Below the pieces are notes generated by a model, which saw only the letters and a program-made list of their open reading frames with translations, did no database searches and was not told where the DNA came from. This document shows, piece after piece, positions 27,146 to 37,750 of a stretch of DNA of 64,000 nucleotides. Origin of the DNA: Fusobacterium ulcerans (lineage in GTDB: Bacteria > Fusobacteriota > Fusobacteriia > Fusobacteriales > Fusobacteriaceae); assembly GCF_003019675.1 (NCBI RefSeq), contig NZ_CP028105.1, forward strand, positions 2,124,282 through 2,188,281, in the 5' to 3' direction. The translations under genes were made by a program, and so were the position numbers. Position 1 is the stretch's first letter, and each line of letters starts with the position of its first letter.

Positions 27146-28336
27146 ATGAATTTTATTTTTATTTCACCAAACTTTCCAAAAAACTATTGGAATTTTTGCA
27201 GAGGATTAAAAAACAATGGAGTAAATACTTTAGCAATAGGAGAAGAGGAGTATTATAGTCTGACGCCAGAATTAAGGAGCTCATTAAATGAATATTACAA
27301 AGTTTCTTCATTGGAAAATTACGATGAAGTTTATCGTGCATGTGCATACTTTGCATATAAATATGGGCGTATAGACTGGTTGGAATCGAATAATGAATAT
27401 TGGCTTTTAAGAGATGCACAGCTTCGTACAGATTTTAATATTAATACAGGACTTAAAAATGATAAGATAGCTGGAATAAAATATAAAAGTGTAATGAAGA
27501 AATTTTATGAAAAAGCTGGAGTGCCAAGTGCTCGTTATCATATTGTAACTAATTATGAAGAGGGAAAAGCATTTATAGATAAAGTTGGATATCCTGTAGT
27601 TGTAAAGCCTAATAATGGTGTAGGTGCAGCAGCTACATACAAATTGATAAATGATGTAGAATTAGGGTATTTTTATAGAGATCTTCCACCAGTTGAATAT
27701 ATTATGGAAGAATATGTAAATGGAGAGCTTTTATCATATGATGGAATAGCAGGAAAAGATAAAGAAATAATATTTGAAACTGCTCATGCATATCCTATTC
27801 CAATAATGGATATAGTAAATGAACAGGCAGATGTAATGTACTATTCGTATAAAGATATTCCTGAAGATTTAAAAGAAGCTGGAAGAAAGGTAGTACAAGC
27901 TTTTGATACTAACAGTCGTTTTTTTCATTGTGAATTTTTCAGACTGTCAGAAGATAAAAAAGGGCTTGGAAAAAAAGGTGATATAATAGGACTTGAAGTA
28001 AATATGCGTCCACCTGGTGGATATACTCCTGACATGATGAACTTTGCAAATGATATAGATGTTTATCAGATATGGGCAAATATGGTAGCATATAATCAAG
28101 GATATTTTGATACAGAGTCTAGACCATATAATTGTGTATATGCAGCTAGAAGAGATGCTCACAGATATGTTTACAGCAAAGAGGAAATTTTAGCTAAATA
28201 TAGAGACAATATAGTAATGAAAGAAAGAATGCCAGAGATTTTTTCAGTAGCTATGGGGAATGATATGCTTACTGCGAGATTCTGTGACTTAGAAGAATGC
28301 TTTGAATTTATTGATTTGTATTTAAAAAAATATTAG
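27146..28336 (+). CDS. ATP-grasp family carboxylate ligase of unknown substrate
   Basis: A 396-residue ATP-grasp enzyme. The N-terminal Rossmann-like part (1-110) is followed by the ATP-grasp core: VGYPVVVKPNNGVGAAATY (the Lys and glycine loop that bind ATP), YIMEEYVNGELLSYDG, and the metal-binding end GLEVNMRPPGGYTPDM. Such enzymes join a carboxylate to an amine through an acyl phosphate. A GGGGGGA precedes the ATG. It leads a tight operon with two alpha/beta hydrolases and a small protein, which suggests an enzyme set that makes and unmakes an ester or amide. The substrate cannot be inferred. Confidence 0.8.
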   Translation: MNFIFISPNFPKNYWNFCRGLKNNGVNTLAIGEEEYYSLTPELRSSLNEYYKVSSLENYDEVYRACAYFAYKYGRIDWLESNNEYWLLRDAQLRTDFNINTGLKNDKIAGIKYKSVMKKFYEKAGVPSARYHIVTNYEEGKAFIDKVGYPVVVKPNNGVGAAATYKLINDVELGYFYRDLPPVEYIMEEYVNGELLSYDGIAGKDKEIIFETAHAYPIPIMDIVNEQADVMYYSYKDIPEDLKEAGRKVVQAFDTNSRFFHCEFFRLSEDKKGLGKKGDIIGLEVNMRPPGGYTPDMMNFANDIDVYQIWANMVAYNQGYFDTESRPYNCVYAARRDAHRYVYSKEEILAKYRDNIVMKERMPEIFSVAMGNDMLTARFCDLEECFEFIDLYLKKY

Positions 28337-28356
28337 AATGTAGGAGGAGATAGAAT

Positions 28357-29112
28357 ATGCATACTGCTTATTATAAAGAATACAGTCATATACTGGGAAG
28401 AGAAATGGAATTTACAGTATATGGACATAGTGGAAAACCTTGCATAGTTTTTCCTGCACAAGATGGAAGATTTTATGATTTTTTTAATTTTGGAATGGTA
28501 GATGCTTCTTCAAAATTTATTGAAGAGGGAAAATTACAGCTATTTTGTGTAGATGGAATTGATTGGGAAAGCTGGTCAAAAATAGGGGGAGACTACCATT
28601 GGAGAATAATGCAGCATGAGAAATGGTTTAATTATATAACTGAAGAGGCTGTTCCAAGATTTAGAGAAATTCACGGAGAAACTTCTGGAGAGTATTACAG
28701 AGGAAAATTTTTAACAACAGGATGCAGCATGGGAGCATATCATGCATTGAATTTTTTCCTTCGTCGTCCAGATATTTTTGATGGAGTAATTGCTTTGAGC
28801 GGACTTTATCATGCTGGATACTTCTTCCCAAATTATAGTCATGAGATGATTTATAATAATTCTCCAGTTGATTATATGAAAAATATGCCATGGAATCATT
28901 ATTATTTAGATATGTATAGAAACTCAAAAATAATTCTTTGCTGTGGTCAGGGAAGATGGGAAAAAGAATGTATAGAGGATACTAACAGTTTGAAAGAAAG
29001 TTTTAAACGTCTTCAAGTTCCAGCATGGACAGATTTTTGGGGATATGATGTAGACCATGACTGGCCTTGGTGGAGAATACAATTTCCATATTTCTTAGAT
29101 ATAGTACTATAA
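28357..29112 (+). CDS. Esterase-like alpha/beta hydrolase
   Basis: A 251-residue alpha/beta hydrolase of the esterase D-like type. The nucleophile elbow is GCSMGAYHA with Ser124, and His234 in DVDHDWPWW is the probable catalytic His. No signal peptide, so cytosolic. AGGAGGAG lies before the ATG, 20 bases after the ATP-grasp gene. The paired occurrence of this esterase with an ATP-grasp gene and a second esterase suggests a shared pathway; the substrate is unknown. Confidence 0.8.
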   Translation: MHTAYYKEYSHILGREMEFTVYGHSGKPCIVFPAQDGRFYDFFNFGMVDASSKFIEEGKLQLFCVDGIDWESWSKIGGDYHWRIMQHEKWFNYITEEAVPRFREIHGETSGEYYRGKFLTTGCSMGAYHALNFFLRRPDIFDGVIALSGLYHAGYFFPNYSHEMIYNNSPVDYMKNMPWNHYYLDMYRNSKIILCCGQGRWEKECIEDTNSLKESFKRLQVPAWTDFWGYDVDHDWPWWRIQFPYFLDIVL

Positions 29113-29131
29113 ATTACTGAAGGAGCTTACT

Positions 29132-29890
29132 ATGGTTTTAAAACATGAAATTTTTATTGAACCTTTTGGTCTAAATAGAATTTTACATATATATATTCCT
29201 GATAATATAAAAGAGGGAGAAAGATTTCCTGTAATGTATATGTTTGATGGACATAATCTGTTTTTTGATTCAGAAGCAACCTATGGAAAATCTTGGGGAA
29301 TAAAAGATTTCTTGGATAATTCCAATACAAGAATAATAGTGGTAGGATTAGAGTGCAATCATGAAGGAAATAAGAGACTTTGGGAATTTTCCCCTTACTC
29401 TTTTAAAGATAAACATTTTGGAACTGTTAAAGGATATGGTAAAATATTAATAGACTGGATGGCTGATTTTTTAAAACCAATGATAGACAAAAATTTTCCA
29501 ACACTGCCAGAAAGAGAATTTACTGGTCTTGGAGGAAGTTCTATGGGAGGACTTATGTCAGTATATGGAACTGCCATGAGGTCAGATATTTTTTCTATGG
29601 GAGCTTGTCTTTCTCCTTTTTATGATCATATATTTAAAAAGCTGGTAGAGGAGCTTTCAGCAGCAGAAGTAAATTCAGCTACAAAGTTTTATATCAGTTG
29701 GGGAAGATATGAAGTACACTCTAAAAAGCAATTAGCTGTAGAATCTGAAAAAAATCTTATTATAAGCAGAATATTGACTTTTAAAGGAGTTCAGGTATTT
29801 CCTCATTTAATGGTAGAGGGTGCACATAATGAAGCTTCATGGGAAACAGAAAATCCTATATGGATGACAGAACTGGGGCTTATAAAATAA
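29132..29890 (+). CDS. Second esterase-like alpha/beta hydrolase
   Basis: A 252-residue hydrolase of the putative esterase (esterase D/enterochelin esterase-like) type. It has PVMYMFDGHNLFFD near the N-terminus, the nucleophile elbow GGSSMGGLMS with Ser137, and His232 in EGAHNEASW. It is cytosolic and lies 19 bases after the preceding hydrolase. The two hydrolases differ clearly in sequence and are not a recent duplication. Confidence 0.82.
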   Translation: MVLKHEIFIEPFGLNRILHIYIPDNIKEGERFPVMYMFDGHNLFFDSEATYGKSWGIKDFLDNSNTRIIVVGLECNHEGNKRLWEFSPYSFKDKHFGTVKGYGKILIDWMADFLKPMIDKNFPTLPEREFTGLGGSSMGGLMSVYGTAMRSDIFSMGACLSPFYDHIFKKLVEELSAAEVNSATKFYISWGRYEVHSKKQLAVESEKNLIISRILTFKGVQVFPHLMVEGAHNEASWETENPIWMTELGLIK

Positions 29891-29910
29891 TATTAAATAT
29901 GGAGGGGTAT

Positions 29911-30192
29911 ATGTATTATAGTATTTTTTTAGAAATGAAAAATGATCCTGAAATAAAGAAATGGCTCAATATGAATACTAAAGATAAAGTTACTGAAATA
30001 TTAAAAGGATTGTCTGATGAAGGAATAAAAAAATTAAAAATAGTTGAAACTTCTACTGAAACTAATGGAGAATATGATCTTATAAAAAGATTCATTAGAG
30101 AAACTCAAATTTTAGGAGAGAAATTTTTTAATGAGAAATATCCTTTTTATTATGCTAAAGATATTACAGAAGAAATTATAAAAAGAAAATAG
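29911..30192 (+). CDS. Small uncharacterised protein closing the ATP-grasp operon
   Basis: A 93-residue charged soluble protein that I do not recognise. The frame is open into the preceding hydrolase, but GGAGG just before ATG 29911 sets the start. It is helical, with Tyr and Phe near the C-terminus and no membrane segment. It may be a partner of the three preceding enzymes, judged only from position. Confidence 0.65.
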   Translation: MYYSIFLEMKNDPEIKKWLNMNTKDKVTEILKGLSDEGIKKLKIVETSTETNGEYDLIKRFIRETQILGEKFFNEKYPFYYAKDITEEIIKRK

Positions 30193-30199
30193 TGAGTAC

Positions 30200-30277
30200 A
30201 AGAGGATGGCTTGTAGATAGAAATATAATTTTAGAATTAAAGTTTAATCTAGCTTCTTAGCCATCCTCTTTTTTTAA
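30200..30277 (+). terminator. Terminator of the ATP-grasp operon (resembles repeat A)
   Basis: A perfect 12-bp stem, AAGAGGATGGCT/AGCCATCCTCTT, with an inner TAGAT/ATCTA pairing and a run of seven or more T. The left half shares AAGAGGAT, GATAGAAATA and ATAATTTTAGAA, in the same order, with an arm of the palindrome at 972-1183. It may derive from that element. Confidence 0.7.
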
Positions 30278-30300
30278 ACTGAAAGGGGAGAAAAGGAAAA

Positions 30301-31653
30301 ATGATACATCATTTGATAAAAAAGTTATTTGTAATTTTTTATATACCTGCTGCTGCTAATATTCCTTTGCTCATATATTACTATTATAAGAATGGCGGAA
30401 ATATTTTATTATTAGTTTTAATTAGTATGATGGTATTTATTTTGTGGGGGTATATTAATATTTTTCCATATAAAAAAGAAAAATATGCAAGAAAGCGATT
30501 GAGAATAATGATGGGTGGAAGAGCTTTATGCTTTTATTCTTTTTATGGTTTTCTAGCTCAAATAGGAATAATTGTATTTTTATATCCTTTATTGAGAGAA
30601 AAAATAAATAATAGTGAAATATTATGGTTCAATGGATTGTATGCTTTAGGAACAAACTTTTTTCTTTTTTTTAATGGAATTATACGGATATTTTTCACTT
30701 CAAAATGGCTAAGCTTTAGAAAAAGAGTTCTGTTGATACTTACTATTTGGATTCCTTTTATAAATATCTTGGTTCTTTTTTATATTTTAAGAATTATAAA
30801 GTGGGAGTATGAATTTGAATGTTATAAAGTTTCTTTGAGGGAAACAAGAGCAGAATCAGATATGTGTAAAACTAAATATCCTATAATACTTGTACATGGA
30901 GTAGGGTTCAGAGATTTCAGACATTTCAATTATTGGGGGCGTATTCCAAGAGAATTGATAAGATATGGAGCTTCTATTTATTATGGAAATCAAGAAGCTT
31001 TTGGAACTATCGAATACAATGGAGAGGATATTAAGAAAAAAATATTAGAAGTGATAGAGAAAACAGGGTGTGAAAAAGTAAATATAATAGCACATTCAAA
31101 AGGTGGATTGGATTCACGATATGCTATAAGTATATTGGGAATGGATAAATATACAGCTTCTCTTACAACTATAAGTACTCCACATAGAGGATGTCTTTTT
31201 GTTGATAAAATGTGCAGGCTGCCTGAAAAGTTACATAGAGGAGTTGCTAAGTTTTATGATAATATGTTTAAAAGATTAGGAGATAAAAATCCAGACTTTT
31301 ATGGTGCAACTCATCAATTTACTACTCACAACAGTAAAGAATTTAATGAAAAAGTAATAGATTCTCCAGAAGTTTATTATCAAAGTTATATCTCTGTAAT
31401 GAAAGATTGTTTAAGTGATGTTTTGCTTACTATACCATATTGTTTTATCAAGAAAGTAGATGAAGAAAATGATGGTTTGGTAAGCATTTCTTCTGCCAAG
31501 TGGGGAAATTTTAAAGGAGTTATAAGAAATAAATATCATAGAGGAATATCTCATGGAGATATTATAGATTTGAAAAGACAGGATTATAAAGGCTTTGATG
31601 TTATAGAATTTTATATACAGCTTGTTTCTGAATTGAAAGAAATGGGTTTTTAA
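30301..31653 (+). CDS. Membrane-anchored lipase (alpha/beta hydrolase)
   Basis: A 450-residue protein in two parts. Residues 1-170 hold about four hydrophobic helices, and residues 190-450 form a triacylglycerol-lipase-type alpha/beta hydrolase. It has the oxyanion motif ILVHGVGFRD and the nucleophile elbow AHSKGG with Ser266. The likely triad partners are Asp391 (EENDGLVS) and His418 (ISHGD), the order seen in Pseudomonas/Burkholderia-type lipases. There is no signal peptide in the usual sense; the helices probably anchor it in the inner membrane. It lies behind a terminator, so it is likely transcribed alone. Confidence 0.85.
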   Translation: MIHHLIKKLFVIFYIPAAANIPLLIYYYYKNGGNILLLVLISMMVFILWGYINIFPYKKEKYARKRLRIMMGGRALCFYSFYGFLAQIGIIVFLYPLLREKINNSEILWFNGLYALGTNFFLFFNGIIRIFFTSKWLSFRKRVLLILTIWIPFINILVLFYILRIIKWEYEFECYKVSLRETRAESDMCKTKYPIILVHGVGFRDFRHFNYWGRIPRELIRYGASIYYGNQEAFGTIEYNGEDIKKKILEVIEKTGCEKVNIIAHSKGGLDSRYAISILGMDKYTASLTTISTPHRGCLFVDKMCRLPEKLHRGVAKFYDNMFKRLGDKNPDFYGATHQFTTHNSKEFNEKVIDSPEVYYQSYISVMKDCLSDVLLTIPYCFIKKVDEENDGLVSISSAKWGNFKGVIRNKYHRGISHGDIIDLKRQDYKGFDVIEFYIQLVSELKEMGF

Positions 31654-31808: not shown

Positions 31809-34031
31809 TTATATGTCTTTAATTTTTTCAGAAATATATCTGCTTGGACTCATCTCTTCTTTCCAGTTAGGGTCAGAAATATTAAAATTCTTACCATATA
31901 TTTCAAGAAGCCTCTTTAAAGAATTTCTTGGAATATATGTATCAATTCCCATAAACTTAATCTCTTTCAATGTAGAGTTTGACAGCTTGTAAGCCGAAAT
32001 AATTCCATTCTTATCTTCAAGATAGCAAACTACCTTATCATCTTCTCTGTCAAAAAGAAATATCTCAATTTCAATTCCTTTGTATTCATATTTGATATTT
32101 TTAAGTCCTTCATTTTTTAAGCTCAACGAAGAAATTCTTTTAAATCCTTCACTTTCTATATCTATTATGAATTTAGGAATAAGTTCTTCCTTCATTATTC
32201 CAATGTCAAAGTTAATGTCATGTCCTATAAAATTATTTTCTCTGATTTTTCCAAGAAGAGTTCCAAATTCAAGCCAATATTTTACACCTGTTTTTTGAGA
32301 AGTTTTATTCAAAATTTCAAGGACTTCCTTACCTGTTAAAAGTAAATTTTCTCCTTGTTTTTCCTTCTTTATTGAATCTTTTCTCTTTTTATTATAGATT
32401 CTATTTCTTATATATTTCATTGAAAGATCAAAAACTACTTTGAAAAATATATTTACAAGAATGATCATTACAGATATTGCTGCTGCCGCCCCAATATCTC
32501 CAGCATCATTTTTACTTATCATCATTACAGAAATAAGTCTTGTTTTTGTTGTATAAAGAAAAATAACTGCTGAAATAGTTATCATAGAATTTATAAAATA
32601 ATATGAAAAGCTTTCAAGGATAGAATCTATTGATAAAGGAATAATAACTTTAAAAATAGTTCTGTACCATGGAACTCCCATGATATTAGATATAGTTTCA
32701 TACTCACTGTCTAAAGTTTTTAATCTTGCAGTTATAGCTAAAAAAGGTGTTGCAAAGAAATGAACTATATTTGCAAGTATAATTATTCCAAAGCTTCCAT
32801 AGAGGAAATTCAGAATATTATCTTTAGAGTTGAAGAAGAAAATATATGCAAGTCCTATTGTCAATCCAGGGAGAGCATTAGGAAGGATAGAAAGAAAATA
32901 TCCTATTTTTCTTACAACTATGTAATCCTTTTCTCTTTCAATCATATATGCAGTAAGGAAGCATAAAAAAGTACCAAGTATTGCAGAGAAAACTGAGACA
33001 AGAATACTGTTCCCGAATATTCTCCAGATACTTTCACCCATTATTGTAAAATTATATGATTTAAAAGATAAAGTCATATCATAAGGCCATGTTTTTACAA
33101 GAGAAGCCAAAATAACTATTCCGAAGAAAGATACTATAATCAAGCTTAAAATATAATTGAAAAGTTTAAAAAAGATATCTCTTGCTTTATTTTCTTTTAT
33201 AATATATTTAGTAGATTTTGAATCTATTTTCGAACTTTTGCTTTTAATGACAATATCAAACACAAAGGCAATAAAAGCAGGGATTATAAGTAGTATTCCA
33301 ACAGCTGATCCCATGGAAAAATTTTGCTGCCCTATTACTTGTTTAAATATATCAGTAGCAAGGACATTATAATTTCCTCCAACTACCTTTGGAGCTCCAA
33401 AGTCTGTAAAGCTTAAAGTAAAGCCAGAGAAAAAACAAGTGATCAATGTATATTTAATGTTAGGAATTGTTATTGTGAAAAATTGTTTTAATCTGCATAT
33501 TCCCATTATTTCTGCCATTTCATATTTTCTATAATCCTCTGAATCAAAAGCTAGTACCAGCATAAAGAAAAGCACTGGGAATATAAAGATAGTTTCTGCA
33601 AAAACTATTCCCCAGAATCCATATATAGAAATTGAAAGATCAAAAGCTTTAGTAATAATTCCCTGTCTTCCAAAAAGGTATATAAGAGCAATACCATGTG
33701 TCATAGTAGGAGAAAACAAAGGTAAAAGTGCAATTCCTTTTAAAAGAGATTTTCCTCTCAAATTACTTCTGTTTATTCCATAAGAAAAAAGGAAAGCCAG
33801 TATTATTGTAAGAATAGTTACAGTTATAGAAACTTTCAAACTGTTAGTAAGAGAACTTGCTGTAACTGGGTTGCTGAAATATTCAGCAAAGTTTTTTAAA
33901 CCTATATAATTACCATTCTTTCCTTGAAAAGCTTTTATAAAAAGATTGAAAATAGGAAAAATTATGGAAATAACAAGAAAAAGAACTAAAACTAAAGAAA
34001 GCATTATTTTTATTAATTTATCTTTTTTCAT
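31809..34031 (-). CDS. ABC importer double permease fused to a LicD-like transferase domain
   Basis: A 740-residue fusion. Residues 1-550 are a two-module ABC permease with about 12 helices, of the layout seen in the 2-aminoethylphosphonate PhnU2-type and iron/thiamine importers. The first EAA-like loop region follows YRKYEMAEIMG, the second LDSEYETISNIMG. After a Lys-rich linker, residues 560-740 form a LicD-like nucleotidyl/phosphotransferase domain: YWLEFGTLLGKIRENNFIGHD, then FDIGI. LicD enzymes move phosphocholine from CDP-choline to glycans. The middle acidic residue of the usual LicD Asp cluster is Asn here. There is no internal start codon at the junction, so one polypeptide is expected, with the transferase in the cytosol. 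GGAGA precedes the ATG. Confidence 0.82.
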   Translation of the reverse strand: MKKDKLIKIMLSLVLVLFLVISIIFPIFNLFIKAFQGKNGNYIGLKNFAEYFSNPVTASSLTNSLKVSITVTILTIILAFLFSYGINRSNLRGKSLLKGIALLPLFSPTMTHGIALIYLFGRQGIITKAFDLSISIYGFWGIVFAETIFIFPVLFFMLVLAFDSEDYRKYEMAEIMGICRLKQFFTITIPNIKYTLITCFFSGFTLSFTDFGAPKVVGGNYNVLATDIFKQVIGQQNFSMGSAVGILLIIPAFIAFVFDIVIKSKSSKIDSKSTKYIIKENKARDIFFKLFNYILSLIIVSFFGIVILASLVKTWPYDMTLSFKSYNFTIMGESIWRIFGNSILVSVFSAILGTFLCFLTAYMIEREKDYIVVRKIGYFLSILPNALPGLTIGLAYIFFFNSKDNILNFLYGSFGIIILANIVHFFATPFLAITARLKTLDSEYETISNIMGVPWYRTIFKVIIPLSIDSILESFSYYFINSMITISAVIFLYTTKTRLISVMMISKNDAGDIGAAAAISVMIILVNIFFKVVFDLSMKYIRNRIYNKKRKDSIKKEKQGENLLLTGKEVLEILNKTSQKTGVKYWLEFGTLLGKIRENNFIGHDINFDIGIMKEELIPKFIIDIESEGFKRISSLSLKNEGLKNIKYEYKGIEIEIFLFDREDDKVVCYLEDKNGIISAYKLSNSTLKEIKFMGIDTYIPRNSLKRLLEIYGKNFNISDPNWKEEMSPSRYISEKIKDI

Positions 34032-34039
34032 GAGATCTC

Positions 34040-35005
34040 CTAAATACTATTTTTTTCATTTAATTTAATGTAAAGAGAATCGTTAATTTTAAGATTTAAC
34101 TTTTCTTTTTCTTTAGAAAGTATATCAATGTAGATATTATCTCCAAATAGTTCTAATGTAATTCTATAAAAAGCGCCTCTAAATTCAATATTTTTTATAA
34201 CACCTCTATGTGTTTCTTCTTTTTCCTCTGTAAAATATTCTACATCCTCAGGTCTTACAGTATATATATCATTGTTTTTATCAGTGATAAAATTTATTTT
34301 CCCTATAAAATCGGCTACAAATATATCTTTAGGTTTACTGTAAATTTCTTCAGGTGTGCCAAATTGAACTATTTCTCCACCATTGATAATAGCAATTTTA
34401 TCTCCCATTGTAAGAGCTTCCTCTTGATCATGAGTTACCATAATTGTAGTTATTTTTAATTTCTGCTGAATTTCTCTTATTTCTTTTCTCAGGGATTCTC
34501 TTACTTTTGCATCTAAAGCTGACAGAGGTTCATCAAGTAACAAGATATTAGGTTCAAGAGCTAGAGCTCTGGCTAGAGATACTCTTTGCTGTTGACCTCC
34601 ACTCATTTCATCTGGATATTTAGAAATTATATGATCAAGTCCTACCATTTTAAGAACTTCCATAATTTTTTCTTTTCTCTGTTGTTTATCTTTTATTTTC
34701 TTTTTTAATCCGTATTCTATATTTTCAAATACTGTCATATTTGGAAAGAGAGCATAGGATTGAAATACCATACTTAAATTTCTTTGAGAAGGTTCCAAAG
34801 TTGTTATCTCTTTTTCATTAATTAAGATATTTCCAGAATCAAGCTTTTCAAGTCCAGCTATTATACGAAGCAGAGTTGTTTTACCACATCCGCTTGGACC
34901 TAAAAAACATATAAATTCTCCTTTTTCTATTTCCAAATCAATACCTTTTAAAACTTCTACTTTATTAAATTGTTTTTTTACTTTTTTTATAGCTAAGTAA
35001 GGCAT
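34040..35005 (-). CDS. ABC transporter ATP-binding protein (2-aminoethylphosphonate/spermidine-iron type)
   Basis: A 321-residue importer ATPase. Walker A is GPSGCGKTT, the Q-loop is VFQSYALFP, the signature is MSGGQQQR, Walker B is ILLLDEP and the switch His is in VTHDQ. A C-terminal TOBE-type regulatory domain (about 240-321) is present. It pairs with the permease 8 bases downstream and with the substrate-binding lipoprotein upstream. The substrate class is inferred from the binding protein, not from this subunit. Confidence 0.92.
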   Translation of the reverse strand: MPYLAIKKVKKQFNKVEVLKGIDLEIEKGEFICFLGPSGCGKTTLLRIIAGLEKLDSGNILINEKEITTLEPSQRNLSMVFQSYALFPNMTVFENIEYGLKKKIKDKQQRKEKIMEVLKMVGLDHIISKYPDEMSGGQQQRVSLARALALEPNILLLDEPLSALDAKVRESLRKEIREIQQKLKITTIMVTHDQEEALTMGDKIAIINGGEIVQFGTPEEIYSKPKDIFVADFIGKINFITDKNNDIYTVRPEDVEYFTEEKEETHRGVIKNIEFRGAFYRITLELFGDNIYIDILSKEKEKLNLKINDSLYIKLNEKNSI

Positions 35006-35007
35006 TT

Positions 35008-36030
35008 TTATTCTCCTTTACCATATCTTATTTCCCATTCTTTAAGCAATCTTTCCCTATTATCTGAAGCCCATTTGAAATCTATTTTGGCTAATTTTTC
35101 TTTGAAATCTGCTGGATAACCCTCAAGTTTAGTAGTGACTCCTTTATATGAAACCAGTCCAATATTTTTAGAATATTCTTCCATCATTTTTTTAGAAAGA
35201 GCCCATTTAATAAAATCAACAGCTTCTGGTTTGATTGTATCTTTTTTTACAAGAGCAATTCCTTCCATATCCCATCCATATCCTTCAGCAGGCAGAATAG
35301 TAACTATAGATTCATTAGTTTTTCCAAGTCTTATACTTTCACTGTCCATTCCAATTCCAATTAATTGTTCCCCTTGCATAGCCATTTTAACTGGAGCACT
35401 TCCTGAATGAGTATATTGAGATATGTTTTTATGAAGCTGATCCATGTATTCCCATGCTTTTTCTTCACCCCAAATACTTATCCATCCTAATATTGTAAGA
35501 TAACCTGTTCCAGAAGAAGCTGGATTAGGCATAACTATTTCTTTAGAATACTTCTCATCAAGAAGATCTGTATATGAAGTTGGAATAGGTAAATTTTTAG
35601 CTGCAAGTTCATATTTATTAGCTGTAATAGCAGATGTCCAAGCAGTCATACCTGTCCATTGAGGTTTTTCACTGATAGAATCAATATATGTAGGATCAAT
35701 ATTTGTCAACCATTCATTATTCAATTCAGATAATCTTCCTTCTTTAGCAAGATCAATAAGGTTGATACTTGCCATACCCCATAAGACATCAGCTACAGGA
35801 TTATTTCCTTCAGCAATTACTTTAGCAGCAATAGCTCCTTGAGAATCTCTTATTATATTAAGCTCTACATTGGGGAAATCTGCTTTGTACATTTCAATGT
35901 AATGATTTAGATATTCTTCTTCAAGTCCAGTATAAACATTTAAGACAGTTTTATTTTCTTTACTCCCACATCCAAAAAGAAATGCTGAAAGAATAAAAAG
36001 AACAGAAATTTTTAATAGCTTTTTCATCAT
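35008..36030 (-). CDS. Substrate-binding lipoprotein, 2-aminoethylphosphonate (PhnS-like) type
   Basis: A 340-residue solute-binding protein. A signal peptide with lipobox FLFGC (lipidated Cys21) anchors it in the membrane. The Fbp-like fold shows LNVYTGLEEEYL near the N-terminus and a MPNPASSGTGYL segment, which I associate with the 2-aminoethylphosphonate-binding PhnS2 family; iron(III)-binding relatives are the main alternative. The start lies 7 bases after AAGGAG. It shares one base with the stop of the upstream nucleotidyltransferase, so transport and activation genes are tightly coupled. Confidence 0.85.
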   Translation of the reverse strand: MMKKLLKISVLFILSAFLFGCGSKENKTVLNVYTGLEEEYLNHYIEMYKADFPNVELNIIRDSQGAIAAKVIAEGNNPVADVLWGMASINLIDLAKEGRLSELNNEWLTNIDPTYIDSISEKPQWTGMTAWTSAITANKYELAAKNLPIPTSYTDLLDEKYSKEIVMPNPASSGTGYLTILGWISIWGEEKAWEYMDQLHKNISQYTHSGSAPVKMAMQGEQLIGIGMDSESIRLGKTNESIVTILPAEGYGWDMEGIALVKKDTIKPEAVDFIKWALSKKMMEEYSKNIGLVSYKGVTTKLEGYPADFKEKLAKIDFKWASDNRERLLKEWEIRYGKGE

Positions 36031-36758
36031 TAATTTTCTCCTTTTTCTAATAATTTAGGGTAAATAGTTTCCATTACTCTATTTAATTGAAACTCATCAT
36101 CTATTTCAGACCAGATAATACCATCTACTCTTTTACAAAATATTCTTCTTTCTTTTGCTATTTTTTCTATACAATATTCATAACCTAATTTAAGATTTTT
36201 TTCATCTTCATATTTTTTGAACATAAGCTGGCACAATTCATTAGATAATTTTTGTAATCCAGTAAGTTCACCATATTCTCCTTTGATCTCAAAAAGGTTG
36301 AAAGTAAGTTTTCCAATACTATTGTCTATAATTTCATAGTAATAATCATCAGACATTTTTTTATCTTCTGATAAAAGAATAGTATCTTTTTCAGGAGAGG
36401 TAATTAATATATCAAGACAGTTTTTTTCATAGATAAGATCCCCTTCTAAAAGCAGAATATCTTCATCACCAATTAATTCTTTAGCACAATAAAAACTTCC
36501 CATACTGCTTGTATTAGCATAGTTGCTGTTTTTTATTGTAACAACACTGCTGTATTTTTTCTTTAAAGGTTCAAAAAAATAATCTAAATGTCCTGTTACT
36601 AATATTATTTTTTTAATTCCTGAGTCTAAAAGCTTCTCTATTGATCTTTCAATAAGAGATAATCCATTTATTGCTAAAAAAGGTTTTGGAATCTCATCAT
36701 TAGTTATTCCTCTGAGTCTCGTTCCCATACCTGCTACAAGTATTACTGCTGTTTTCAT
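36030..36758 (-). CDS. LicC/PntC-like CTP-dependent nucleotidyltransferase
   Basis: A 242-residue sugar-nucleotidyltransferase-fold enzyme. The catalytic signature AGMGTRLRGITNDEIPKPFL is intact (Gly-X-Gly-X-Arg, then Pro-Lys). NYANTSSMGSF, LLEGDLIYE and the late WSEIDDEFQL match the layout of CTP:phosphocholine cytidylyltransferase (LicC) and of phosphonate cytidylyltransferase PntC. Given the adjacent 2-aminoethylphosphonate-type importer and the LicD domain, the likely product is a CMP-activated aminophosphonate or phosphocholine (inference). It overlaps the upstream HTH gene by four bases. Confidence 0.82.
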   Translation of the reverse strand: MKTAVILVAGMGTRLRGITNDEIPKPFLAINGLSLIERSIEKLLDSGIKKIILVTGHLDYFFEPLKKKYSSVVTIKNSNYANTSSMGSFYCAKELIGDEDILLLEGDLIYEKNCLDILITSPEKDTILLSEDKKMSDDYYYEIIDNSIGKLTFNLFEIKGEYGELTGLQKLSNELCQLMFKKYEDEKNLKLGYEYCIEKIAKERRIFCKRVDGIIWSEIDDEFQLNRVMETIYPKLLEKGEN

Positions 36759-37696
36759 AAATCTTTCTCCTTTTTATATAAACTTTTGACTATATTATTT
36801 TTAATATATTCATATTGTTTTTGATTATCTATTTCTCCCCAAATATTTTCTTTGGAGGATATGCATTTTAGATCAGAAAAAATATTTTTATCTAAAAAAC
36901 TATATTCATAAAAAAATAATTTATTTTCTATTTGTGTGAATTTATCCAACATTTTTAAGTAGGAACTATATTTTAATTTGCTGATTCCTATAAGCTCACC
37001 TGAAATTTTTTCAAGGCTGTATTTTCCTTTTGAAATATTTAAAAGTTCATTTTTTTTAGTAGTAACATAGAGAGAATCTTCTTTGTCTGATATGGAAGTA
37101 TCTATCATAGTTACATTCTTATCTTTTGAGTTCAGCAAAAGAGATATTATATTTTCTTCGAAAATAAGGTCCCCTTCTAAAAGGATAAAATCTTCCTGTA
37201 AATGTTTTCTTAAAAGATAGAGAGAGTACATATTTCCTGTGGTCTTATATTTTTTATTTTCTATTATTTTAAGGTTAGAATATTCTTTAGCTAGTTTTTT
37301 ATAATATTCTGCTTTGTATCCAGCAGCAATTATTATTTTATCTATATTATATTTTGATAGTAGTTTTATAGTTCTTTTAATGAGAGTTGAATTTAAAATT
37401 TCAAGAAATCCTACTGGTTTATCAAAATCTAAAGTTTCTCCAGCAGCCAAAATAACCGCAGTTTTTATTCTATTATTATTAGACTTCAAAAGCTCATTTC
37501 CAGAATCTGTAATAATATATTTAGTTTCTCTGTATGAAATATTTTCTTTAATAAGGCAGCCCTCGTTTAAAAGAGAATTAATATATTTATTAACAGAACC
37601 AAGAGAAATATTTAGATATTCAGATATTTTTCTCTGACTTATTATGCTGTTCTCATGTATAAGAGATATGATTTTTTCTTTTATCTGAATCACCAC
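36755..37696 (-). CDS. Winged-helix protein fused to a degenerate nucleotidyltransferase domain
   Basis: A 313-residue protein. Residues 1-65 are a MarR/Lrp-like winged helix (SQRKISEYLNISLGSVNKYINSL). Residues 78-313 have the same fold as the next gene product, but the catalytic loop reads AAGETLDFDKPVG, lacking the Gly-X-Arg of active enzymes; FILLEGDLIFE and WGEIDNQKQY are kept. It may therefore be a sensor that binds an activated ligand and regulates the operon, or a weak enzyme. The start is uncertain: GTG 37696 and GTG 37693 both overlap the AAGGTGG, and no ATG is available. Confidence 0.75.
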   Translation of the reverse strand: MVIQIKEKIISLIHENSIISQRKISEYLNISLGSVNKYINSLLNEGCLIKENISYRETKYIITDSGNELLKSNNNRIKTAVILAAGETLDFDKPVGFLEILNSTLIKRTIKLLSKYNIDKIIIAAGYKAEYYKKLAKEYSNLKIIENKKYKTTGNMYSLYLLRKHLQEDFILLEGDLIFEENIISLLLNSKDKNVTMIDTSISDKEDSLYVTTKKNELLNISKGKYSLEKISGELIGISKLKYSSYLKMLDKFTQIENKLFFYEYSFLDKNIFSDLKCISSKENIWGEIDNQKQYEYIKNNIVKSLYKKEKDL

Positions 37697-37709: not shown

Positions 37710-37750
37710 TGAACGATTATATTTTTACACTGTGAACGATTTTTGTCAAG
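37710..37750 (-). promoter_or_regulatory. Promoter and TGAACGATT direct repeats of the phosphonate/LicD operon
   Basis: TGAACGATT occurs at 37710-37718 and 37733-37741 (23-base period). On the minus strand a perfect TTGACA (37745-37750) lies just 5' of the outer repeat, and AT-rich -10 candidates (TAAAAA, TATAAT) fall between the repeats. The layout suits an operator for the HTH protein encoded first in the operon (inference). The rest of the 301-base divergent region is AT-rich, with GAACAAA variants at about 37843 and 37912. Confidence 0.5.

Follow-up and report, generated by a model that had tools for sequence, protein, structure and literature searches.

A five-gene operon of Fusobacterium ulcerans that probably imports a ready-made aminophosphonate and activates it for surface decoration

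In the 64,000-nucleotide stretch of Fusobacterium ulcerans DNA analysed here (contig NZ_CP028105.1, positions 2,124,282 to 2,188,281; in the following, the window), five genes at 31809-37696 combine an ATP-binding cassette (ABC) importer with a PntC-like cytidylyltransferase and two further domains of nucleotidyltransferase fold. From gene content, an in-frame fusion, residue changes, the absence of phosphoenolpyruvate (PEP) mutase and genomic context, we infer substrate, flux, surface target, repressor action and feedback as follows. The PhnS2/T2/U2-type importer would bring in a small preformed aminophosphonate, most likely 2-aminoethylphosphonate (AEP), the enzyme encoded at 36030-36758 would couple it to cytidine monophosphate (CMP), and a transferase encoded elsewhere would attach the activated phosphonate to a surface glycan (lipopolysaccharide (LPS) O-chain or core), with regulatory pseudoenzymes involved and with scavenging replacing PEP mutase synthesis in a Pnt-like phosphonyl-tailoring pathway. 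We put the probability of this reading at roughly 0.6. Its core, capture of an aminoalkyl phosphonate or phosphate and activation with cytidine triphosphate (CTP), is well supported, and AEP is likely to be the exact substrate. An earlier note on this DNA had proposed direct AEP uptake, CMP activation and transfer; capture and activation can be maintained, whereas transfer by the LicD-like part of the operon is doubtful. The genes are, from first to last (G000 below is the window's own genome, other G numbers are compared genomes and L numbers compared loci):

36755-37696, minus strand: first gene, 313 amino acids, winged helix-turn-helix (HTH) plus degenerate cytidylyltransferase domain (HTH-NT; PF13412, PF12804)
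36030-36758, minus strand: PntC-like cytidylyltransferase (CTase), 242 amino acids, intact catalytic signature (6pd1, E 1e-44)
35008-36030, minus strand: PhnS2-like substrate-binding lipoprotein (SBP), 340 amino acids (TIGR03261, 373.1 bits, slightly below cut-off)
34040-35005, minus strand: PhnT2-like ABC ATPase, 321 amino acids (TIGR03265, 438.9 bits, slightly below cut-off)
32388-34031, minus strand: PhnU2 permease part of the fused gene, residues 1-548 (TIGR03262, 638.8 bits, above cut-off)
31809-32387, minus strand: LicD-fold tail of the fused gene, residues 549-740, probably non-catalytic (PF04991)

As described before, the five open reading frames are tightly packed on the minus strand, with gaps of 8 and 2 base pairs (bp) and overlaps of 1 and 4 bp, the 1-bp overlap joining the SBP and CTase genes. 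The same gene order is found in three further genomes of the genus (G025, G026 and G027), the CTase frame being broken in G026. In G033, from another genus of the same family, the operon is present without the HTH gene, in the order CTase-SBP-ATPase-permease/LicD, and is flanked by glycosyltransferase genes and cytidine diphosphate (CDP)-sugar genes (RfbH, 725 bits, and CDP-glucose 4,6-dehydratase, 497 bits, in a profile search), that is, it sits inside an O-antigen locus, in line with the surface-glycan context suggested earlier. As both operon and fusion are kept across two genera, chance or artefact can be ruled out.

With 638.8 bits, the permease part exceeds the PhnU2 cut-off of 593.25, and PhnS2 and PhnT2 are the best NCBIfam models for SBP and ATPase, respectively, supporting an importer of the AEP-transporter group. 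The genome G000 encodes a second PhnS2-T2-U2 set, followed by a phosphonatase (PhnX; TIGR01422, 347 bits) and an AEP transaminase (PhnW; TIGR02326, 566 bits), and therefore the transporter group fits AEP. This catabolic copy, whose PhnT2 likewise stays below the cut-off (432.0 bits), shares 42-58% identity with the operon importer, and a quick tree with long branches puts the two permeases into separate groups. Hence, the operon employs the same importer family as the catabolic systems (TIGR03261/03265/03262 with PhnX and PhnW) but has no catabolic genes attached, carries a LicD-fold tail on its permease and differs in pocket residues. By sequence, the SBP comes closest to the sugar-phosphate binders of the AfuA type and to P5PA, which binds pyridoxal phosphate, ahead of iron binders, and fold comparison of its AlphaFold2 model (predicted local distance difference test, pLDDT, 87.4) also ranks AfuA and P5PA first and iron binders behind. 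An iron (FbpA-type) or thiamine importer is ruled out by both the profile and the fold ranking. The phosphate-holding pocket positions of AfuA (PMC4546632) and P5PA (PMC8427247) can be matched to Ser173-Gly174-Thr175 and Ser209 of the SBP, which are invariant in nine relatives, whereas the sugar-binding His205 of AfuA is Ser in the SBP, and the presumed ligand and the gene context are unlike those of the two solved proteins. At the opposite end of the pocket, a Glu at position 231 is present in the decoration-type SBPs (window, G025, G027, G033 and the clostridial strain 14S0207 treated below) as well as in a standalone SBP of G049, while three catabolic SBPs have Pro. Loci L080 and L046 (G049 and G050) bear PhnS2T2U2 sets with a 59% identical permease that groups with the fused permeases and has no LicD tail; no cytidylyltransferase is encoded near L080.

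The closest solved structure to the CTase (CYTIDYLYLTRANSFERASE; 36030-36758) is T. denticola PntC (6pd1, E 1e-44), with LicC (1jyk) at E 8e-14. In T. denticola PntC, Ala at the positions of Arg15, Lys25 or Lys153 reduces activity to less than 10%, and Glu104 and Glu196 face the AEP amine, where LicC has Asp at both positions (PMC6697681); the partially conserved Lys153 contacts a phosphonate oxygen. The window CTase keeps Arg15, Lys25, Glu104, Asp106 and Glu196 and shows the PntC signature GXG(T/S)R...PK that includes Arg15 and Lys25. The LicC/PntC-like enzyme of the earlier note is thus of the PntC type. A tree of 114 nucleotidyltransferase domains places it among PntC and HTH-NT sequences from clostridia, the inner forks being weakly resolved; this placement, together with a Phe at position 153, is the reason for naming it PntC-like. 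Among its 80 closest relatives in the genome collection, PEP mutase accompanies 56, choline kinase alone seven, and the importer one. Several other cytidylyltransferase frames were encountered. A LicC-like frame at G000:907051 was rejected as a candidate because it joins a sugar nucleotidyltransferase to a GT2 glycosyltransferase. A frame of about 600 amino acids in G021 (L074:3956-5770) had been considered a fusion of PntC with AEP transaminase, which is ruled out by its CobD/HisC-like aminotransferase part; perhaps it activates another phospho-amine (the fusion partner scan covers the G021 frame only, and similar frames exist in G023 and G053). Distant from the operon, G033 has a second, degenerate CTase copy with an altered GXG motif (L070:8977-9648 on contig C14). 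In G061, a PhnW/AepZ-like aminotransferase, a PntC-like enzyme and two LicD genes follow each other (L077:7039-10612), and TIGR02320 finds no PEP mutase in that genome.

The lack of a PEP mutase gene, noted previously for the window, extends to the whole genome: the PF13714 profile gave no match anywhere in G000, nor in G025, G026, G027 and G033, as against 193 and 199 bits in two control genomes that contain PntC. Profiles also detect neither choline kinase nor LicB in the operon, and a search for a choline kinase partner elsewhere in G000 gave only a weak match in a 235-amino-acid frame. Consequently, without PEP mutase the operon does not qualify as a Pnt cluster, and without choline kinase and LicB it does not qualify as a Lic-1 operon either. 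With the Pnt pathway (PMC6697681) it has CTP activation, the catalytic and amine-facing residues and, in G033, adjoining glycan genes in common, but PEP mutase, phosphonopyruvate decarboxylase and AEP transaminase are missing, an importer is present instead and Lys153 is replaced. With the Lic-1 phosphocholine pathway (LicA-LicB-LicC-LicD) it shares import, CMP activation, a LicD-fold part and the HTH-NT relatives contained in lic-type operons; unlike Lic-1, it uses an ABC importer and a CTase with PntC-type pocket, and its LicD part is degenerate and fused to the permease.

An unfused counterpart of importer and PntC is encoded in Clostridiaceae bacterium 14S0207, in the order SBP-ATPase-permease-HTH-PntC with intact catalytic signature. 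Its surroundings read as a flagellin-glycosylation island: judged from translations, genes of the pseudaminic-acid type lie on one side and flagellin genes on the other, and the set is followed by a gene for a member of the sulfatase superfamily (PF00884). Hence, the combination of importer and PntC is found in two phyla, considering the operon of the Fusobacteriaceae and the clostridial set together. Neither PEP mutase, PhnX nor PhnW exceeded the cut-off in 14S0207, and in G033 phosphonatase and PhnW remained below it as well (best 33 and 32 bits), so that in these two genomes nothing but activation is apparent as a fate of the imported compound, whereas PhnX and PhnW pass in G000, G025, G026, G027, G008 and G034. 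These findings bear on a purely nutritional role, with AEP imported as phosphorus, nitrogen or carbon source and the cytidylyltransferase an unrelated passenger. The linkage of PhnS2T2U2 importers to catabolic genes in this order and the PhnX and PhnW encoded elsewhere in G000 would agree with it, but G033 and 14S0207 keep importer and CTase without the catabolic enzymes, the two adjoin in both phyla, the SBP and CTase genes even overlap, and a separate catabolic importer is already available in G000, making such a role very improbable. Besides, the clostridial locus (L083:12237-18169) encodes two sulfatase-superfamily-type proteins of about 670 amino acids, the first after the importer-HTH-PntC genes (PF00884 by profile) and the second after a LicC-choline kinase pair, which are candidate phosphonate and phosphocholine transferases, respectively.

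The LicD-like sequence had been taken for a separate gene, and a transferase gene at that; instead, it constitutes the C-terminal 192 residues of the 740-amino-acid permease frame (31809-34031), in frame, and matches PF04991 with 25.1 bits (gathering threshold 22.6). The same fusion occurs as frames of 743-745 amino acids in G025, G026, G027 and G033, that is, in five genomes of two genera, and in no other genome of the 96 from the order that were searched. The predicted structure of the tail (pLDDT 83.6) adopts the FKRP fold (E 2.6e-7, Z 13.9-14.4). In FKRP, Asp360, Asp362, Asp364 and Asp416 are each required for activity, and Asp362 binds both metals (PMC6965139). According to correspondence by motif, all five fused domains have Asn for Asp362 and Glu for Asp416, and the G033 copy additionally has Asn for Asp364, while standalone LicD proteins keep positions 362 and 364 in 17 of 17 cases and 416 in 16 of 17. 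Hence, the tail shares the nucleotidyltransferase fold of FKRP/LicD phosphotransferases but, fused to an ABC permease, has lost the central catalytic Asp in every copy and is therefore probably not the transferase. Its sequence is nevertheless under strong purifying selection, the ratio of nonsynonymous to synonymous substitution rates (dN/dS) of 0.018-0.021 between congeners being the lowest in the operon in both comparisons. Conservation of a domain that is probably without catalytic activity, and its attachment to an importer, point to a sensor in the cytoplasm, which might recognize the activated product there (for instance CMP-AEP) and restrain import. Alternatively, the tail could be an atypical but active transferase, uniting uptake and transfer in one membrane protein. 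Such a function would be in line with the LicD/FKRP fold, with Asp360 and the hG motif region being kept and Asp364 retained in four of five copies, with the constraint on the tail and with the finding of no other LicD in G033. Considering the replacements at 362 and 416, the loss of 364 in G033 and the consistent retention of 362 and 364 in standalone enzymes, we regard this as rather improbable. If scavenged aminophosphonate is indeed used for decoration, the two intact standalone LicD genes in an LPS-type locus of G000 are the candidates for the transfer step.

For the first gene, the earlier description as an HTH-linked nucleotidyltransferase homologue was correct with regard to the HTH and the fold, which profiles assign to 36030-36758 and 36755-37696 alike, but the catalytic Arg and Lys are lost and the protein is better read as a sensor or regulator. 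An N-terminal winged HTH precedes a domain in which Arg15 is replaced by Asp and Lys25 by Val, with Glu104, Asp106, Lys153 and Glu196 kept. The same pattern characterizes the whole HTH-NT clade (24 members, support 99/99), where Arg15 and Lys25 are lost in 24 of 24 and Asp or Glu at 104, Asp106, Lys153 and Glu196 are kept. In the tree, the window protein pairs most closely (97/91) with two HTH-NT genes from clostridia (L219 and L220), each followed immediately by a PEP mutase gene; many members of the clade occur as choline kinase fusions in Lic-type operons. When the upstream regions were compared by an unbiased k-mer test, GTTCA ranked first (17 of 19 against a background of 0.276, nominal P 3e-8). 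The palindrome GTTCA-N5-TGAAC is present in these 19 regions eight times exactly, five times with one and three times with two mismatches, compared to six, two and 31 cases, respectively, in 362 control regions, and no exact match of the palindrome was obtained at other spacings. Upstream of the operon, the following elements can be deduced:

37721-37749, minus strand: predicted promoter TTGACA-17-AAAAAT with TG before the second hexamer, matching the consensus and conserved in four genomes (across the region, 47 consensus matches were found versus 39.6 expected)
37733-37739, minus strand: TCGTTCA, candidate operator half-site within the promoter spacer, in a block conserved in four genomes
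37710-37716, minus strand: TCGTTCA, second candidate half-site, 23 bp downstream, in a block conserved in four genomes

Judged from these sequence features, HTH-NT is probably a substrate-sensing repressor, which would recognize the substrate or its CMP conjugate and shut down the operon from the TCGTTCA sites overlapping the promoter. A more elaborate version, which we hold only tentatively, has the phosphonate coat fed by scavenging, with the winged-HTH pseudo-PntC as repressor and the pseudo-LicD on the permease sensing the CMP-phosphonate and throttling import. In this version, the HTH pseudo-PntC would represent a class of regulators widespread among pnt and lic operons, with GTTCA-N5-TGAAC as operator. 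Fusions of HTH, pseudo-cytidylyltransferase and choline kinase were observed in Bacillota and Fusobacteriota (L071:8973-10757, L139, L144, L147, L150, L160, L224, L226 and others); all of these have lost the Arg and Lys and kept the pocket, and most of the L071-type fusions bear the palindrome close upstream. The corresponding frame in G008 is such an HTH-NT-choline kinase, and those of G048 and G036 are similar by alignment.

Several observations weigh against the import of AEP for surface decoration. The scores of SBP and ATPase lie slightly under the PhnS2 and PhnT2 cut-offs (392.75 and 457.7, respectively), and the substrate specificity of the PhnS2T2U2 family itself appears to rest on gene context. 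Compared to the catabolic SBP, the pocket has Gln64 for Thr, Ser230 for Tyr and Glu231 for Pro. At the position of Lys153, found in most catalytic relatives and required for full activity of T. denticola PntC, the four intact Fusobacteriaceae CTases have Phe (window, G025 and G027) or Ser (G033). No standalone LicD passes in profile searches of G033 (the fused one aside) or 14S0207, and a transferase cannot be named in G033. The best palindrome match of the window has two mismatches, a level reached by 11% of background regions. To our knowledge, no surface phosphonate is known for these species. A paper on the O-antigen of F. nucleatum ATCC 51191 makes no mention of phosphonate, and no description of import-fed AEP decoration or of an HTH-NT regulator was found in the open-access literature, where absence is a weak argument.

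Some of these points would suit the same logic with another phosphorylated amine, such as phosphocholine, phosphoethanolamine, aminopropanol phosphate or a modified aminophosphonate, being converted to the CMP conjugate for the surface. Loss of Lys153 is shared with LicC-type enzymes (Val or Ile there), the SBP pocket is unlike that of the catabolic AEP-linked protein, its fold relatives bind sugar phosphates and pyridoxal phosphate, and the family comprises CTase homologues with other fusion partners (CobD/HisC-like, L074). However, Glu104 and Glu196 are PntC-type and not the Asp pair of LicC, the genome itself links the importer group to AEP catabolism, no other solved structure comes nearly as close to the CTase as T. 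denticola PntC, and HTH-NT groups with proteins heading PEP-mutase clusters. Another amine is thus unlikely, and import and CMP activation of an aminophosphonate, in the first place AEP, remains the favoured explanation.

Adjoining the operon, a plus-strand run at 27146-31653, conserved in the genomes of the same genus, encodes an ATP-grasp-like protein (by reading), two PF00756 esterases and a lipase-like membrane protein (PF05057).

According to existing descriptions, bacteria synthesize their surface phosphonates themselves by way of PEP mutase, and surveys therefore look for its gene. If import and activation of ready-made aminophosphonate for the surface hold true, such surveys would miss bacteria coated with phosphonate from diet, host or neighbours, and the surface chemistry of these bacteria would depend on outside supply. 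An importer bearing a probably dead transferase domain would then represent a new link between uptake and downstream demand, and the HTH-pseudo-cytidylyltransferase clade offers a regulator and an operator that can be put to the test in many operons for phosphocholine and phosphonate in Bacillota and Fusobacteriota.

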